In this document: positions 6,498-39,586 of the stretch, in pieces
Position numbering within the stretch: position 1 is the stretch's first letter
Layout: every line of letters starts with the position of its first letter
Assembly: GCA_937951625.1 (NCBI GenBank)
Contig: CALFBP010000090.1
Span: forward strand, 1-39,586
Reading direction: 5' to 3'
Origin: an uncultured Thermoguttaceae bacterium
GTDB taxonomy: Bacteria > Planctomycetota > Planctomycetia > Pirellulales > Thermoguttaceae
DNA length: 39,586 bases
Notes under the pieces: generated by a model
Seen by the model: the letters and a program-made list of their open reading frames with translations, nothing else
Databases searched by the model: none
Told to the model about the DNA's origin: nothing
Translations under genes and position numbers: made by a program

Positions 6498-6527
6498 TTG
6501 ACGCCGCGGGCGGCAAGTGGGTAGAGT
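6498..6527 (+). promoter_or_regulatory. Candidate sigma70-type promoter of the GntR gene
   Basis: TTGACG at 6498-6503 is followed after 18 bp by TAGAGT at 6522-6527, which matches 5/6 and 4/6 of the -35 and -10 consensus. It sits about 40 bp upstream of the GTG start at 6568 and its -10 lies inside the inverted repeat at 6520-6549. Planctomycete promoters are not well defined, so this is a pattern match only. Confidence 0.4.
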
Positions 6528-6549
6528 GAACTGGTCATATCACCTTACC
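6520..6549. promoter_or_regulatory. Inverted repeat, candidate GntR/FadR operator
   Basis: GGTAGAGTGA and TCACCTTACC form an inverted repeat with 8 of 10 positions matching, separated by 10 bp (6530-6539). The inner spacer also contains TGGTC, which resembles the half-site of FadR-type operators. The repeat overlaps the proposed -10 and ends 18 bp before the regulator start, a typical layout for autorepression. No binding data can be read from sequence. Confidence 0.45.
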
Positions 6550-6567: not shown

Positions 6568-7260
6568 GTGCCCCTCGCCCATTTCCCCGCCATCCGTCGC
6601 TCCACGATCGTCGAGGCCATCGCCCAGGGCCTGATCCGCTACATCGCCGAGAACCGCCTCCAGCCGGGCGACCGCTTGCCCTCGGAACGCAAGCTCGCCG
6701 AGATGGTCGGCGCCAGCCGCCTCCCTTTGCGCGAGGCCGTGTGCGTGCTCAAGGGGCTGGGCCTCGTCGAGGCCAAACATGGCAAGGGCGTGTTCGTCAA
6801 GCGTTTGGACCTGGGCACGCTGTTCGGCATGTTGTCCCCTTTGTTGAAAACGCAAGCCGACGTCGATCTGGATCATCTGTTCCAGGCAAGGCTGTATTTG
6901 GAAAAAAGCATCGCCGAAGTCGCCGCGGCGCATCGAACCGAGGACAACCTTCAGGCCCTGGGCCACGCCCTGGAAGGGATGCGCCGCAATCTTCACAACC
7001 GCCGGGCCTACGTCCGGCATGATCTGGATTTCCATCAGGAACTCGCGCGGAGCTCGGGCAATCCGATCTTCCACGTCTTCATGGCCTCCATCCTGGACCT
7101 GTTACGGGAACTTCAATTCCTCTATCAGGATTCCGTCGAGTTCCGTGAAGCGGCAATTGCTGAACACCAGGCCGTTTTCGACGCCGTGGCCCTCGCGGAT
7201 GGCCCGCGGGCGAGCGACGCGATGCGTCAACATATTCTCAATGCCATGCGGCGGACCTAG
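6568..7260 (+). CDS. GntR-family (FadR/FCD subfamily) transcriptional regulator
   Basis: The protein has 230 residues and starts at GTG 6568. The N-terminal winged helix-turn-helix spans about residues 10-80, with the GntR signature LQPGDRLPSERKLAE at 31-45 and SRLPLREAV at 50-58. The C-terminal FCD ligand-binding domain spans about 100-225. The usual metal-binding set Asp-x3-His plus two His appears as D152, H156, H200 and H222, so a metal-assisted small organic acid ligand is likely by family. The gene lies 18 bp upstream of the LamG/heme protein on the same strand, which makes that protein the likely target together with autoregulation through the repeat at 6520-6549. The effector is unknown. 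Confidence 0.92.
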   Translation: MPLAHFPAIRRSTIVEAIAQGLIRYIAENRLQPGDRLPSERKLAEMVGASRLPLREAVCVLKGLGLVEAKHGKGVFVKRLDLGTLFGMLSPLLKTQADVDLDHLFQARLYLEKSIAEVAAAHRTEDNLQALGHALEGMRRNLHNRRAYVRHDLDFHQELARSSGNPIFHVFMASILDLLRELQFLYQDSVEFREAAIAEHQAVFDAVALADGPRASDAMRQHILNAMRRT

Positions 7261-7278: not shown

Positions 7279-10200
7279 ATGTTTACCCTACGACGCGCGT
7301 TGTGCAAAGGCTTCGCGTGGATCGCGATGGTCACGGTGGCAACGGTCGGCGTTTGCGCCGCGGCTGAACAATCGGTCCAACATCCGCAGCCCCTGAAGAT
7401 CGAGAAGCCTCTGATTGCTTATTGGACTTTCGACGAAGAATCGGGGCCGAAGTGCCTGGATTCCAGCGGCGGGGGGCATGACGCGACCGCGGACGCCTCG
7501 GCTTCGTTGGAACGCGTGCCGGGGGTGTTCGGCAGCGCCATGAGCTTCTCGGGGAGGCACATGCTCCACGTGCCCGGAAAGCCCGCCTTCGGCACGCTGC
7601 AAAAAATTTCCTTCAGCGCCTGGACGCTGCCTACGGATTTGAGCGACTACCGGGAGATTTTCCGCAAGGAAGACGGCGACCAACGGGTGTTGTTCTCGTT
7701 TCAGAACAACGGCACGATCCTTTCGCTGGGACTGAACATCCAAGGCTATGTGGAGTGCGACGCCACGATCGACCCGGTCCTAGTCATGGACGGGCGATGG
7801 CATCATTGCGCGGCGACGTTCGACGGAGAAACCATGCGCGTCTATTTGGACGGCAAGGAGATCGGCTCGCTTCTCCGGCCCGGCCCCATTACCGCCGGCG
7901 GCGCGGCGCCGGGGTGCCTCGGCTCGTCCAACGGCAACGAGTGCTTCCAGGGCTTGATGGACGACTTGAGGATCTATGCCGATGCCCTCTCCGCGGAGGA
8001 GATCGCGGCGCTCTATCGGAGCGGCATGGCCGCGGTGGAACAGGCCGCAAAGGAAGTTCAGCAGGCCGTGGATGCCATCTACACGCCGGGCAAGACCTTT
8101 GCCGAAACCCTGGCGGCGGTCCGCAAGAGGATCTTGGAATTGAATCCAACAGAGAAGAATGTGCGGTTGGATCGTGGCGTGGCCGGGGCCGTGCTAGCAC
8201 GGCTGAAGTCGGCCTTCCCCGACGAATACGATCGGTTCGTGACCGCGGCCGGTTCCCGTCCCGCGGAATATTTGACCGCACGCGGCAACGAGTTTCATCT
8301 TCGGGTGGTGGGGCGTTTGGTGGAGTTGATGCAGGAGTACAGGCCGCTGACGGACGATCAGTGGAAGAAGCTATCGGCTGCTGAGCGTCGCCAATGGGAC
8401 GAAGCGGATGCCTTGGCCCAGCGCTTCGAGGCCCTCAAGGCCCAGGGCGACGCCGCGGCGTTCTCGCCGGAGTGGATCGAGGTCTTGCTCGCGGCCTTCC
8501 CGCGGATCCAATTCCGGCCAGTCGTCCAGGAGGCCGTCGCTCCCTACGTTCGGCCGCAAACGCCGCCGCTGCAACAATTGACTCCCGACGAGGCCCTCGC
8601 GGCGATCCGCAGCGATTGGCTCCACCAGGCCGATCAGAATCCCACGCCGCAGCGGATTCTGAACGAGATCGGCTGGGCCCGCGAGCTGGCCGAGCGGATC
8701 GCGGCCTCGCATCCCGGGCGAGTCGATTTCATGCCAGAATTGGCCGAACTGCGGGATTTGGAGAAGCAGCTCGCTTCCTCCCTTGCGGCAGCTCCCGCGT
8801 ACGCTGCCAACAACACGCCGTCGGCGGCGGAATCGAACCGCGAGTTGTACTTCCGGGTTCGGGCAGTGAAACGGGCGATCGCGTTCAAGAACCCCGTGAT
8901 CGATTTCAATAAGGTCCTGTTCATCGACAGCCCCTATCCGCAAGGCTCGGAGTGGCAGCACGAGACACGGCACCGGCTGGGCTACATGGCGGTGCCTGGC
9001 GGGCGGTTATTGGTGCTGGAAGGGCTTTCGCCTGGCGGCAAGCTTACGCAGCTTGCCCCCCGGCCTCCCTTGCACGGCTCCTTTTGGCGGCCGGACCTGT
9101 CCTACGACGCCCAGCGCGTTGTGTTTTGTTTCAAGCCGCACAATGAGAAATCGTTCCATCTTTACGAGGTCAACGTGGACGGGTCGGGCCTGACCCAATT
9201 GACGGACGGGATCTACGACGATCTGGATCCGATCTATTTGCCGGACGATCACATCCTGTTTTCCACCACACGGGCCCATACCTACGTCCGCTGCATGCCC
9301 CCGACCAACGCCTTCGTCCTGGCCCGCTGCGACCGCGACGGCAAGAACATCTATCTCGTGTCGTCGAACAACGAGCCGGACTACCTGCCCTCGGTGATGA
9401 ACGATGGCCGGGTCATTTACACCCGCTGGGAATACACCGACAAGCCGCTGTGGCGGGCGCAGAAGCTATGGACGATGAACCCGGACGGGACCCAGGTGCT
9501 GATGTATTGGGGCAACCAGAGCGTCTGGCCTGATCTGGTGAAGGACGCCCGGGCGATTCCCAACAGCCGCCGGGTGATGTGTACCGGCAGCGCCCACCAC
9601 AACTGGTTCGCCGGCTCGGTGGCGATCATCGACCCTGATCGAGGCTTCAATTTTCCCCACGGTTTGACCAAAGTCACGGCCGACGTGCCCTGGCCGGAAT
9701 GCGGCAATGGGCCAATCGACCCGATCGAATCGCCTCGGTATCATGCCAGCGGCGCCTACCCGGCCTATTATTCCCCCTACCCGCTGAGTGAAAAGGATTT
9801 TCTCGTCTCGGCGCAGCGCGGCGGGAAGTTCATGCTGTATTTGATGGACGTGGACGGCAATCGGGAATTGATCTACGAAGGCGTCTACAACGTGTTCCAT
9901 GCCCAGCCCGTGAGGCCACGGCCCAAGCCGCCGGTAATCGCCGACCGGGTCGTCTGGCCGGAGCGCAAGGATCGCTCGGACCCGAAACCGGGAGTGATTT
10001 TCAGCGCCGACGTGTACGACGGCGCCCCGCCAGAACTGAAAGGCAAGGCCAAGTATCTTCGCGTGCTGCACATCGACCCGAAGACATACACGTTCTGGCA
10101 CAAACGGCCATATATTTCGACCGGGCCGGTCGTTTCCGCGGTGCAGTCGGAGGGCGTGAAACGGATCCTGGGCACGGTGCCGATCGAACCTGACGGCTCG

Positions 10201-10947
10201 GTGGCCTTCTACGCCCCACCGGTCAAGGCCCTGCATTTCCAACTCCTCGACGAGCAGTTCCGGGCGTTGCAGACGATGCGGAGTTTCGTGGGCGTGATGC
10301 CTGGCGAGCGGCGCGGGTGTCTGGGCTGCCACGAGTCGCACAGCCGCGCGCCACAAACGTCGACCGCGACCCTGGCCTTGACGAAAGAGCCTCGCGCGAT
10401 CACTCCGCCGCCCTGGAGCGACGACACGGTGAGCTATGCCCGGTACGTCCGGCCCGTGCTCGATAAGTATTGCAGCAAATGCCACGAAGGGGACGGGGAG
10501 GGCCGCAAGGTGTTCGATACCACCGAGCGGCCGGCTCCGCCAGTTTTCAGCGAGCCGTATTTGACGCTCATCGGACGGCCCACGTGGGGCGCGCCGTATG
10601 TCCCTCCGCCGTCGCCGATCCCCGGGTTCGGAATCGCCAACGTGCTCATGGTCGAGGCCTACGGCACGCTCGATCCGCAAGCTTACCTCACGCCGAAGCC
10701 GATGACCTATCTGTCTTACAAGAGCCCACTCATCGAGCTGGCCGCCAGCGGCAAACACTATCATGTCCAAGTCGACGCGATTAGCCTCCAACGCCTGATT
10801 GCCTGGATCGACGCGATGTGTCCGTATCTAGGCGACGACGAAATCCGCCAAATCGACGATCCGGTTTTCCAAGGCGTGGATTGGTTGGCGATACGGCCGA
10901 GGGTCAAGACCGCGCCGCGTATCGTGCGGCCAGGACCGGTGGATTGA
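7279..10947 (+). CDS. Exported LamG / propeller / diheme protein related to hydrazine synthase alpha middle domain
   Basis: This 1222-residue protein has an N-terminal signal peptide (about residues 1-31, ending CAAAEQ) and a LamG/concanavalin-like domain at about 45-250 (IAYWTFDEESG, DDLRIYADALS). A helical linker follows to about 500, and then a TolB-like propeller with YEVNVDGSGLTQLT and TMNPDGTQ repeats from about 550 to 900. The HZS-alpha-type region runs into two c-type heme motifs, C1014-LG-C1017-H1018 and C1065-SK-C1068-H1069. Similar proteins occur widely in non-anammox planctomycetes, so I infer an extracytoplasmic redox or sugar-linked role but not hydrazine synthesis. A clear ribosome site (AGAGGAG) precedes ATG 7279. 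The gene follows the GntR regulator closely. It is homologous to the gene at 37262, which lacks LamG. The substrate is unknown. Confidence 0.88.
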   Translation: MFTLRRALCKGFAWIAMVTVATVGVCAAAEQSVQHPQPLKIEKPLIAYWTFDEESGPKCLDSSGGGHDATADASASLERVPGVFGSAMSFSGRHMLHVPGKPAFGTLQKISFSAWTLPTDLSDYREIFRKEDGDQRVLFSFQNNGTILSLGLNIQGYVECDATIDPVLVMDGRWHHCAATFDGETMRVYLDGKEIGSLLRPGPITAGGAAPGCLGSSNGNECFQGLMDDLRIYADALSAEEIAALYRSGMAAVEQAAKEVQQAVDAIYTPGKTFAETLAAVRKRILELNPTEKNVRLDRGVAGAVLARLKSAFPDEYDRFVTAAGSRPAEYLTARGNEFHLRVVGRLVELMQEYRPLTDDQWKKLSAAERRQWDEADALAQRFEALKAQGDAAAFSPEWIEVLLAAFPRIQFRPVVQEAVAPYVRPQTPPLQQLTPDEALAAIRSDWLHQADQNPTPQRILNEIGWARELAERIAASHPGRVDFMPELAELRDLEKQLASSLAAAPAYAANNTPSAAESNRELYFRVRAVKRAIAFKNPVIDFNKVLFIDSPYPQGSEWQHETRHRLGYMAVPGGRLLVLEGLSPGGKLTQLAPRPPLHGSFWRPDLSYDAQRVVFCFKPHNEKSFHLYEVNVDGSGLTQLTDGIYDDLDPIYLPDDHILFSTTRAHTYVRCMPPTNAFVLARCDRDGKNIYLVSSNNEPDYLPSVMNDGRVIYTRWEYTDKPLWRAQKLWTMNPDGTQVLMYWGNQSVWPDLVKDARAIPNSRRVMCTGSAHHNWFAGSVAIIDPDRGFNFPHGLTKVTADVPWPECGNGPIDPIESPRYHASGAYPAYYSPYPLSEKDFLVSAQRGGKFMLYLMDVDGNRELIYEGVYNVFHAQPVRPRPKPPVIADRVVWPERKDRSDPKPGVIFSADVYDGAPPELKGKAKYLRVLHIDPKTYTFWHKRPYISTGPVVSAVQSEGVKRILGTVPIEPDGSVAFYAPPVKALHFQLLDEQFRALQTMRSFVGVMPGERRGCLGCHESHSRAPQTSTATLALTKEPRAITPPPWSDDTVSYARYVRPVLDKYCSKCHEGDGEGRKVFDTTERPAPPVFSEPYLTLIGRPTWGAPYVPPPSPIPGFGIANVLMVEAYGTLDPQAYLTPKPMTYLSYKSPLIELAASGKHYHVQVDAISLQRLIAWIDAMCPYLGDDEIRQIDDPVFQGVDWLAIRPRVKTAPRIVRPGPVD

Positions 10948-12354: not shown

Positions 12355-13320
12355 CTAGCGCTTTTTGAGCGTGATGCTCAGCCCGCCGGCCTCGTTGTAG
12401 AAGAGCGTCTCCAAGTCCGGGTTGGTGGTGATCGCCTTGACGAAGGCCGGATCGGCCATCTGGGGAGTGATGTTGTGGGCGAGGATCAACCCACCCGGCC
12501 GCACCAATGGCAAGAGTTTGTTCAAGTAGTCGAGATAGCCTTCCTTGTCGGCGTCGAGAAAAACGAGGTCGATCGGACCCTTGAGTTTGCTGACCGTCTC
12601 ATGGGCGTCGCCTTCGACGATGGTCACCCGATCCGCTAATCTTGCGGCGGCGAAGTTTTCCCTCGCCAAGGCCGCCCGCTGGGGATCGATCTCGTGCGTG
12701 AGCAGCTTTCCCCCGGTCTTTCGCAGCGCTATGCCGAACCAAATCCCGGAAATGCCGTTGGAGGTGCCGATCTCGACCACGGTCTTGGCGTCGACGGCCT
12801 CGGCGAGCAACCGCAACATGCGGCCGTCTTGAACAGGCACGTTCAACATGCGGCCTTGCTTGCGGGTAATGTCCTCGATCAACTGAAGGAGCTTCTTTTC
12901 GTCATCATCTTTGGGTTGAATCGAGGACTCGATCGAGACCGCGGGGCGAGCGCCTGGAGCTCCGCGGATTCCTCGTCCCGCGCCGGCTTTGCCGCCCGGC
13001 CCGGCTCCCTCGCCGGGACCGCGCGTCCCGAATCCCGGCCCGATTTGCGGCCGCCACTCCTCGCGCGAAAGTTTGCCGTCGCCGTCCTTGTCGAGTTTCT
13101 TCAGGGCCTCCGCGGCCTTGGCGATTTCATCGGCCGAGAGTTCGCCATCGCTGTTGGCGTCCAAAGCCGTCATGATGGGAATCTGAGGAAATCCGAACGG
13201 ACCGCCTGGCGGCCCACCGCGCTGTTCTGGTTTGTCTCCAAAAGGAGGTTGAGCCCACGCCAGTTCCGCCGCAACGATCCAACCTAATGAAAAGACTAAC
13301 CAAACGAATTCGCGTCGCAT
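12355..13320 (-). CDS. Exported EF-hand / class I O-methyltransferase fusion
   Basis: The protein has 321 residues. A signal peptide is evident (hydrophobic core about residues 6-21, then AWAQ). Two EF-hand calcium loops follow: D54-N56-D58 to E65, and D77-D79-D81 to E88. A Gly/Pro-rich linker (about 92-127) leads to a SAM-dependent methyltransferase domain (about 140-320) of the caffeoyl-CoA/catechol O-methyltransferase type. Motif I is VVEIGTSNG (181-189), E210 is the ribose-binding acid in HEIDP, and LDADKEGY (255-262) matches the metal/substrate site. By family the domain methylates a catechol-like hydroxyl using SAM and Mg2+. The odd point is export: SAM is cytoplasmic. The signal-like segment could be an anchor or the protein could be noncatalytic. 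The gene is monocistronic, converging on the small gene at 11933. Confidence 0.85.
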
Positions 13321-37261: not shown

Positions 37262-39586
37262 ATGAAACGATCGCTGGGCTTGTGGTTGGCCTCAGACGCG
37301 GTTGTGACGGTTCGGCCACGCATGGTGCCGCGAGGGGCGCAGTCTGCCTCGACGTGGCTCGGACGCGCGGCCTGGGCCCTGGTTTTGGCTGTTCTCACGG
37401 GGAGCGTCGGCCCAGCGCTAGCCGCCGAGCCCCAGGCCGAAGGCCCCACGGCGCCCAAGCCGACGCCAGGCTTTCACAGTGGGCCATTGCTGCAACGCTT
37501 TCTCAATGGACCCATGAAAGGCGTGGAGGAAATCGTCTTCGCCGTTCGCGTTCCCGGACGCGACCACTGGTACGTCACCTTTGGCAACTATGCCGATCAC
37601 TCGGAATATCCACGGACCTTGGGCCGGAAATTCGAGGAAGGGGTGTATTGGGGCTACGGCGAGGGCGGACGCCTCTGCCGTCTGAACCTCCGGACAGGTC
37701 AGCTCACGGTGCTCTTGGAGGACGCCAAGGGCGGGGTCCGCGATCCGCAGGTCCACTACGACGGCAAGAAGATCCTCTTTTCCTACCGCAAGGGCGGCAC
37801 CCATCCCTATCACCTCTACGAGATCAACATCGACGGCAGCGGGCTGCGGCAACTGACCGATGGGCCGGACGACGACATCGAGCCCACCTACTGCCCCGAC
37901 GGCAGCATCGTCTTCTGCTCCTCCCGCTGCCGACGGTTCGTGAATTGCTGGTATACGCGGGTGGCGACGTTGTACCGCTGCGACGGCGACGGCCGCAACA
38001 TCCGCATGATCTCCAGCAACAACGACCACGACAACACGCCCTGGATGCTGCCCGACGGCCGGGTGCTCTACATGCGATGGGAGTATGTGGACCGCAGCCA
38101 AGTCCATTTCCACCACCTGTGGACCATGAACCCCGACGGCACCAACCAGCAGATCTTTTTCGGCAACGAATTCGGCAACATCGCCATGCTCGACGCCAAA
38201 CCGATCCCCGGCAGCAACAAAGTCGTGGCGATCTTCTCGCCGGGACACGGAAGGCCTGAACACCTTGGGCCGGTCACGATCCTTGATCCGCGTCTCGGGC
38301 CCGATATCCTCTCGGCCGCCAAAAAAGTCAGTAAAGAGCCGGAATGGAGTGCGCCGTGGAAAGACCCCTGGGCGTTCAGCGAGGATTGCTTCCTGGTGGC
38401 CAGCGCCAAGGGCATTTGGGTCATGGACGGCCAAGGCAACACGGAGCTAATCTACGAGCTTCCGCGTAGCGATCGCGAGCTGGAGTGTCACGAGCCGCGC
38501 CCGATTGCGCCGCGGCCCCGCGAGCCGGTCCACGTCAACCGGGTGGACTTGTCCAAGCCCACCGCCCGTGTGGTCCTCTCGAATATCTACGAGGGCCGCA
38601 ACATGTCGGGCGTGAAGCGCGGCGAAATCAAAAAGCTCTTGGTGCTCCAGCAGATGCCCAAACCGGTGAACTTCTCCGGCGGGATGGAGCCGTTGACCAT
38701 TGGCGGCTCTTTCACCTTGGCGGGCATCGTGGGCACCGTGCCGGTCGATCCCGATGGTTCCGCGTTCATGGAATTGCCCGCCCTGAGGTCCTTGTTTTTC
38801 GTGGCCCTGGACGAGAACGACATCGCCGTCAAGCGGATGCACAGTTTCACGATCCTCCAACCGGGCGAGACGCTCGGCTGCGTCGGCTGCCACGAGCAGC
38901 GGAACCACGTGCCGGAGGTGATTCCCAACCAGACGGGTTTCCGCCGCAAGCCGACGCCCGTCGAACCGATCGCCGACGTCCCCGAGGTCCTCGACTACCC
39001 CCGCGACATCCAGCCCATCCTCGACCGCCACTGCGTGAAGTGCCACAACCCGGATCGTTACGAAGGCCGCGTGGATCTGACGGGCGACAAGACGCCCATG
39101 TACACCATCAGCTACTGGACGATGCTGACCCGCGGCCTGGTGGTCGATGGCCGCAACCAGCCTTTTGGCAACCGGCCGCCGCGTTCCTACGGCAGCGCGG
39201 CCAGCCGCCTGATGAAGCTGATCGACGGGAGCCACCACGAGGCCAAACTCTCGCCCCACGAAACGAAGCTCGTGCGGCTGTGGATCGAGACCAGCGCGAC
39301 TTATCCCGGCACGTATGCCGCGCTCGGCTGCGGCTACTACCCCGTTCACGTCCCGTACGGACCCTTGCGCGATCGCTGCGGCAAGTGCCATGGCCGGGAA
39401 GAGACGAACGAACGCGGCAAGCACGTGGTGCTCGATTTCCCCCGGGCCGGCGGGCCGCGGTCCGAGCCGGTCCTGAATATCTCCCGGCCTGAGAAGGCGT
39501 ATGTCCTGCTTGCCCCACTGGCTCAAGAGGCCGGTGGATTGCAGCTCTGCTCGGAACCGGTCTTCAAGAGCAAGGACGACCCGCTT
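37262..39586 (+). CDS. Exported triheme propeller protein related to hydrazine synthase alpha middle domain, 3'-truncated
   Basis: The frame is open from ATG 37262 to the window edge (775 codons, no stop), so the gene continues to the right. GGGAGG precedes the ATG. A signal-like segment at about residues 36-56 ends ALAAEP. A TolB-like propeller follows (YEINIDGSGLRQLTDG, LWTMNPDGT), then the HZS-alpha-type stretch GTVPVDPDGSAFMELP and three c-type heme motifs: C540-VG-C543-H544, C591-VK-C594-H595 and C706-GK-C709-H710. It is clearly homologous to 7279-10947 but lacks LamG and has one heme more. A role in extracytoplasmic electron transfer or oxidation is inferred; substrate unknown. Confidence 0.87.
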   Translation, partial: MKRSLGLWLASDAVVTVRPRMVPRGAQSASTWLGRAAWALVLAVLTGSVGPALAAEPQAEGPTAPKPTPGFHSGPLLQRFLNGPMKGVEEIVFAVRVPGRDHWYVTFGNYADHSEYPRTLGRKFEEGVYWGYGEGGRLCRLNLRTGQLTVLLEDAKGGVRDPQVHYDGKKILFSYRKGGTHPYHLYEINIDGSGLRQLTDGPDDDIEPTYCPDGSIVFCSSRCRRFVNCWYTRVATLYRCDGDGRNIRMISSNNDHDNTPWMLPDGRVLYMRWEYVDRSQVHFHHLWTMNPDGTNQQIFFGNEFGNIAMLDAKPIPGSNKVVAIFSPGHGRPEHLGPVTILDPRLGPDILSAAKKVSKEPEWSAPWKDPWAFSEDCFLVASAKGIWVMDGQGNTELIYELPRSDRELECHEPRPIAPRPREPVHVNRVDLSKPTARVVLSNIYEGRNMSGVKRGEIKKLLVLQQMPKPVNFSGGMEPLTIGGSFTLAGIVGTVPVDPDGSAFMELPALRSLFFVALDENDIAVKRMHSFTILQPGETLGCVGCHEQRNHVPEVIPNQTGFRRKPTPVEPIADVPEVLDYPRDIQPILDRHCVKCHNPDRYEGRVDLTGDKTPMYTISYWTMLTRGLVVDGRNQPFGNRPPRSYGSAASRLMKLIDGSHHEAKLSPHETKLVRLWIETSATYPGTYAALGCGYYPVHVPYGPLRDRCGKCHGREETNERGKHVVLDFPRAGGPRSEPVLNISRPEKAYVLLAPLAQEAGGLQLCSEPVFKSKDDPL

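Follow-up and report, generated by a model that had tools for sequence, protein, structure and literature searches.

The window, meaning here the whole stretch of DNA analysed, comprises 39,586 nucleotides (nt) of contig CALFBP010000090.1 (assembly GCA_937951625.1) from an uncultured Thermoguttaceae bacterium (Planctomycetota; Pirellulales), a member of the phylum that includes the anammox bacteria. It carries a gene, with about 7 kb of contig sequence upstream and about 28 kb downstream, for a protein in which a LamG domain precedes a TolB-like propeller and a diheme core resembling the alpha subunit of hydrazine synthase (HZS). This gene starts 18 base pairs (bp) after the stop codon of a gene for a GntR/FCD-type regulator, and both reading frames lie where a first-pass annotation, made from the sequence without database searches, had placed them (Table 1). 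Below, 'alpha' denotes an HZS-alpha-like gene or protein, and L, G and C numbers denote fetched loci, genomes and contigs; gene order was taken from a custom, non-standard gene caller, except in L083 and L096, for which it comes from separate readings.

On the window protein, Pfam reports Laminin_G_3 (87.9 bits against a cut-off of 27.6, E = 9.5e-25) and HZS_alpha (PF18582; 77.5 bits against 26.6, E = 1.2e-21), the latter matching none of 14 well-known genomes in a control search. The propeller is weak by sequence (TIGR02800, E = 0.006; TolB chains in PDB, E = 0.0017–0.023) and clear by fold, the TolB chains ranking after HZS structure 5c2v in VIA-align. The first CxxCH heme motif is invariant and the second is kept in 97% of a family alignment (35 rows, of which 33 were counted after two truncated rows were dropped). 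All four elements had been named in the first-pass annotation, and each is borne out. The N-terminus resembles a signal peptide, as judged by eye. An AlphaFold2 model of residues 31–1222, built from an eight-row alignment, has a mean pLDDT of 57.6 (moderate confidence), with a poor LamG part. Its best structural match is HZS alpha of Kuenenia stuttgartiensis (5c2v chain A; Foldseek E = 2.1e-23), onto which VIA-align places 512 residues (Z = 32.9, 4.0 Å, 21% identity), aligning model residues 512–1154 (protein residues 542–1184, as protein numbering equals model numbering plus 30) with chain positions 55–795. Together with the TolB matches, this indicates a core in HZS-alpha order: both proteins have a six-bladed-type propeller, a middle domain and a C-terminal heme domain in the same succession, with two CxxCH motifs. 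The window core is thus predicted, at the confidence of this model, to have the fold of HZS alpha.

FCD regulators with a metal site generally sense small carboxylates. The window regulator exceeds the Pfam cut-offs for both FCD (83.9 bits, E = 1.6e-23) and GntR (61.6 bits, E = 5.6e-17), and its earlier description as 'FadR-type' can be narrowed, since its best characterised match is NanR: the nearest solved relative in PDB is Escherichia coli NanR (6on4; E = 1.5e-28). It shares with NanR and FCD regulators the GntR and FCD domains and the positions of one Asp and three His; these residues (D152, H156, H200 and H222) align with those of the NanR metal site and are invariant in six relatives. 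As described in the available text of PMC8012715, NanR is a zinc-carrying protein that binds N-acetylneuraminic acid (Neu5Ac), and its operator lies downstream of the polymerase site, a placement shared by the predicted operator here. The window regulator differs from NanR in its score on the NCBIfam NanR model (149.2 bits, below the cut-off of 260), in its linkage to heme proteins and in its putative operator, which is AACTGGTCATATGAGYATAY and not the GGTATA repeats of NanR. One relative, on G067:C41 (L088:1792-2480, minus strand), is split across two frames, by sequencing error or by decay, which are indistinguishable; a second copy lies on G067:C201.

Relatives of the regulator at ≥50% identity were found in 11 of 119 genomes of the family, giving 12 loci with the window, and an order-wide sample returned them in 10 of 396 genomes, all from this same family. 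Four further metagenome-assembled genomes (MAGs) carry one: L095 (Lentisphaerae), L096 (Planctomycetota), and L097 and L098 (Verrucomicrobiota); L094 is the G023 contig again. In 12 of these 16 loci, spanning Planctomycetota, Lentisphaerota and Verrucomicrobiota, a same-strand alpha gene lies downstream, at most four genes away: directly after the regulator in nine (the window, L086, L088, L089, L090, L091, L095, L097 and L098) and as the fourth gene in three (L082, L083 and L084). Three of the twelve contigs stop before the HZS_alpha domain, and their genes were assigned as alphas by 51–56% identity to L084, L086 and each other (L082, L083) or by 62% identity over LamG (L088). Regulator and alpha genes overlap by 1–4 nt in L095, L097 and L098. 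The other four contigs end after zero to two genes, L085 after 0.1 kb, L087 after 0.9 kb and L081 after one open reading frame (ORF) without signs of an alpha; L096 is taken up below. In a FastTree tree of 95 of the 99 alpha cores (the short rows L083_9, L114_0, L082_0 and L051_0 were left out), in which long branches, including that of L107, make the deep branching soft, the regulator-linked alphas fall in four branches: the window clade; L084/L086/L095/L097/L098; L089/L090; and L091. In L097 and L098, the regulator is followed first by a second-branch alpha and then, farther along the locus, by a LamG alpha of the window clade.

A conserved site, the AACTGGTCATATGAGYATAY noted above, lies upstream of nearly all regulator copies. 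When the genus under test was withheld from training, 14 of the 16 upstream regions scored above all 1,000 first-order random sequences, and L097 reached P = 0.03; scores for regulator sites obtained without such withholding are circular, and it was in these very sequences that the motif was first spotted by eye. In 10 of the 16 regulator loci, a sigma-70-like promoter matching the consensus at 9 or more of 12 positions (all 12 in L095) ends 0–13 nt ahead of the operator; in the window, such sites occur four times in 5.1 kb, against 1.4 on average in shuffled sequence. The window's own operator-like site beat all 1,000 random sequences in the leave-genus-out test. The exact core TCATATNAGYATAY, from which the sites of the window, G053 and G067 deviate, has 12 hits in the 11 regulator genomes, eight of them at regulators, while the reversed pattern has none; in 11 genomes of the family that lack a close relative of the regulator, it has one hit and the reversed pattern also one. 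Two of the hits away from regulators stand upstream of alphas: in G005 at 161 bp from a LamG alpha belonging to the window clade, and in G057 at 84 bp from a 1,085-aa alpha, with the regulator on another contig in both genomes.

Table 1 Features of the regulator-alpha unit in the window (aa, amino acids).
Feature	Positions	Strand	Evidence
Sigma-70-like promoter of the regulator-alpha unit, TTGACG-18 nt-TAGAGT	6498..6527	+	Consensus scan, 9/12 matches
Operator-like site AACTGGTCATATCACCTTACC	6529..6549	+	Left half like relatives, right half degenerate; leave-genus-out score 20.4
NanR-like GntR/FCD regulator, 230 aa, GTG start as listed	6568..7260	+	Pfam, NCBIfam NanR, PDB NanR
LamG/propeller/HZS-alpha-like diheme protein, 1,222 aa	7279..10947	+	ORF, Pfam, structure model, fold match
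LamG domain, ~aa 46-259 (Pfam stretch aa 104-243)	7414..8055	+	Pfam E 9.5e-25, clade profile
TolB-like beta-propeller, ~aa 542-881	8902..9921	+	VIA-align to TolB chains, Z ~25
HZS_alpha middle domain, aa 922-1019	10042..10335	+	PF18582
Heme motif 1, CLGCH (heme alphaI position), aa 1014-1018	10318..10332	+	Motif, alignment; no Tyr four residues on
Heme motif 2, CSKCH (heme alphaII position), aa 1065-1069	10471..10485	+	Motif, alignment

The window's genome contains 14 matches to PF18582, two within the window itself; across a phylum sample, 42 of 246 genomes show such matches, up to at least 19 per genome. LamG is present in 26 of 28 members of the window protein's clade, from Planctomycetota and Verrucomicrobiota, and is therefore more than a chance hit; of the two exceptions, L134 has no LamG and L059 has a separate LamG match just upstream on the contig. 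In L089, L090 and L135 LamG is C-terminal. Eleven of the 14 copies in the window's genome were scanned for extra domains (L011, L012 and L015 were left out), and eight carried LamG (one), F5/8C (six) or NPCBM (one), with an FGE-sulfatase domain on one more and no extra domain on two. That a single genome joins the same core to LamG, F5/8C or NPCBM links this family with glycans. The available text of PMC5615132 describes the PSCyt/PSD cytochromes of Planctomycetes–Verrucomicrobia–Chlamydiae (PVC) bacteria, which are exported and of unknown function, are likewise present in many copies, and carry the same kinds of carbohydrate-binding modules (LamG_3, NPCBM, F5/8C); their core consists of PSCyt/PSD domains, whereas that of the window protein, which has no PSCyt hit, is a propeller with HZS_alpha. 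Several other features of the family were observed. The second alpha gene of the window (37322-39586, plus strand) runs off the contig end and has no LamG, but has PF18582 (E = 1e-17), PD40 repeats and three CxxCH motifs; its tree neighbours are L127 (G024) and L139 (G560). A C-terminal FGE-sulfatase (formylglycine-generating-type) domain follows the core at L013:4678-8349 in the window's genome and at L098:13934-17818 in a Verrucomicrobiota MAG, and alphas stand in tandem, up to three in a row, in L108, L109, L112, L090 and L098.

Genes of small-acid catabolism accompany some regulator copies. Downstream of the regulator in L097 are an FAA hydrolase, a 2-hydroxyacid dehydrogenase and an aldehyde dehydrogenase, all assigned at family level. 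In the Lentisphaerae MAG, two glycyl radical enzyme genes of PFL2-3 type (family level) directly follow the regulator-alpha pair (L095:11240-15689). No specific pathway could be assigned from such partners, because the FAA hydrolases score about 200 bits where the rhamnonate enzyme requires 500, and neither the aldehyde dehydrogenase nor Ldh_2 reaches the listed cut-offs; only the broad label is kept, and it rests on L095–L097 and not on the window. Together with the conserved metal-site residues, these catabolic genes in the loci of three relatives make a sugar acid or hydroxy acid a plausible inducer. Linkage to Gfo/Idh/MocA sugar dehydrogenase genes was considered and dropped as evidence: some lie near alpha paralogues (on C2, C33, C38 and C73), but this genome encodes 76 in total, and no enrichment around alphas emerges when every fetched locus is counted (5 of 285 near genes against 3 of 265 others).

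On balance, and by a narrow measure, we favour a self-repressing regulon under a NanR-like regulator, serving lectin-tagged diheme proteins of the extracytoplasmic space that would be held on glycan and act in redox on carbohydrate. The regulator and alpha would form a self-repressed operon, in which the NanR-like FCD repressor would bind the operator directly downstream of the sigma-70-type promoter and so hold down both itself and alpha. A small carboxylate, most likely a sugar acid or hydroxy acid, would lift repression by chelating the metal of the regulator. The alpha product would then be exported, gain two c-type hemes and be held on glycan by LamG, while its propeller and HZS-alpha core would perform or relay redox chemistry on a carbohydrate or a compound derived from one.

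Several observations weigh against this regulon. No regulator relative (tblastn, E 1e-5) is present in any of the 49 loci of close alpha relatives (L022–L070), several of which are two cuts of one place and some of which have little upstream DNA, although 19 of the 20 wider cuts (L051–L070) include at least 1.7 kb upstream; the sole exception, L088, was reached from the regulator side. Most close alpha relatives must therefore be controlled otherwise. No site above 10 bits lies within 600 bp upstream of alpha in L051–L070 other than L054, and at the threshold applied, no site precedes the other alpha genes of the genomes with a regulator. L087 shows no operator in the genus-left-out test, the right half of the window's site is degenerate, and two of the four exact-core hits away from regulators are not at alphas (G015:C293 and G000:C2). 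A widened pattern, fitted to the window's site and hence matching it exactly by construction, gives three hits at up to three mismatches against six for its reversed control. In L096, the regulator is followed by an FAA hydrolase and Ldh_2 (family level) and then the contig end, with no alpha. Beside the window gene, there is no sugar-acid breakdown enzyme; in the alpha protein, no catalytic residue was identified; and the lack of Gfo/Idh enrichment counts on the same side.

The absence from those 49 loci, in a family with 14 copies in this genome, would fit the view that alpha is simply one of many exported cytochromes in a large PVC family and adjoins the regulator by chance or hitch-hiking. 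We regard this as distinctly improbable, since about 1% of loci would be expected to show such adjacency (an estimate from 14 alphas in 4.6 Mb at about 1 kb per gene) against the 12 of 16 observed, and the operator is shared with unlinked alphas. The first-pass annotation had asked whether homologues keep a neighbouring regulator: from the heme protein they do not, whereas from the regulator they do, and the operator recurs at two alphas without a linked regulator. The regulator-alpha link is thus real in one direction, from the regulator side, and stronger than could have been known from the window, supporting the placement of an extracytoplasmic-type heme protein in one putative transcription unit with an FCD regulator. 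The same regulon could also serve a protein whose hemes relay electrons for a separate enzyme, or whose LamG and propeller only position the chain on glycan or at the cell surface, with the catalyst elsewhere. The want of a known catalytic residue and of the HZS Tyr ligand at heme alphaI favours this, as do the LamG/PEP-CTERM, dockerin/PEP-CTERM and pilin-like DUF1559 proteins (the last assigned in L084 by clustering) encoded between regulator and alpha in L083 and L084. We nevertheless consider electron transfer or surface anchoring rather unlikely, because the core keeps the whole HZS-alpha arrangement; in addition, a propeller His pair (H773 in 85% and H774 in 73% of the 33 rows; Tyr and Met in HZS-alpha) is compatible with, but no proof of, a site preserved close to heme alphaI. 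Binding-type domains make up most of the chain, as they would in a sensor or receptor that detected glycan through propeller and LamG and reported redox state through its hemes, but the Pfam scan finds no transmembrane or signalling domain on the protein, and such a function seems highly improbable.

Nitrogen chemistry, either by an unrecognised HZS alpha or by a similar enzyme of nitric oxide, hydroxylamine or ammonia, is suggested by the shared fold and heme motifs. Our positive control was L107, a true HZS-alpha (1591.5 bits to 5c2v_A) with a gamma-subunit gene next door. Its heme alphaI region reads CSGCHDGSY, against CLGCHESHS in the window protein, which has Ser at the position aligned with Tyr591, and Tyr is found there in none of the 32 non-anammox rows with letters at that position. 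According to the available portions of PMC12758564 and PMC12607021, Tyr591 is the proximal ligand of heme alphaI in HZS; the former also reports its loss in non-anammox homologues (clades I–IV), which share the PF18582 domain and the fold family with the window protein, and likewise concludes against HZS identity or nitrogen chemistry for them. On the NCBIfam HZS-alpha equivalog (cut-off 800), the window protein scores 41.9 bits and L107 1598.8 bits. The beta/gamma-like cluster contains no called gene from the window, and the only other called window gene with CxxCH is the second alpha at 37322. In the FastTree tree, L107 groups with L011 and L128, outside the 87-row set that contains the window protein. 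Two clade members do count on the other side, L063 and L070 having a beta/gamma-like two-heme gene three and two genes away, respectively, as does a locus elsewhere in this genome: at L011:2-5674 (minus strand), a beta/gamma-like gene (eight CxxCH motifs, cut by the end of the stretch) is separated by one gene from an alpha, which belongs to the branch nearest true HZS-alpha and not to that of the window protein. Given the missing Tyr, the lack of a called beta/gamma-like gene in the window and a score near 42 bits where 800 is needed, we conclude on sequence grounds that the window protein is not HZS alpha, from which it also differs in the LamG domain and helical linker in front and in having its own regulator. 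We judge nitrogen chemistry the most improbable of the functions considered.

Two further genes of the window were observed. A STAS anti-sigma-antagonist-like gene (10818/11028-11369, plus strand; E = 1.4e-10) lies shortly downstream of the alpha gene. At 12355-13320 on the minus strand, an O-methyltransferase domain is combined with EF-hands after an apparent signal peptide, again judged by eye, and an exported fusion of this kind would be an odd location for an S-adenosylmethionine enzyme.

The window protein is a variant of the known PF18582 family, with the LamG fusion and the proposed repressor regulon as its apparently new elements. In the literature searched, subscription papers aside, we found no prior description of a regulator or a LamG fusion for HZS-alpha-like proteins, and PMC12758564, in its available text, covers genes beside beta/gamma homologues and mentions neither. 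Oxidation of a sugar-derived compound by the window protein, as first suggested in the first-pass annotation, may be kept as a working hypothesis. More tentatively, and as a possibility we hold to be doubtful, the regulon, carried by PVC bacteria of three phyla, could serve to induce lectin-tagged diheme oxidoreductases of the HZS-alpha fold when its NanR-like repressor encounters a sugar acid; the large non-anammox family would then consist of heme enzymes of extracellular glycan oxidation, and HZS alpha would have been recruited from among them, as a branch that acquired the Tyr ligand. The role of HZS-alpha-like proteins outside anammox bacteria bears on the origin of hydrazine synthase, and a dedicated regulator with a sequence-defined operator offers a handle on that role, as knowing its inducer would give a clue to what the heme proteins act on.

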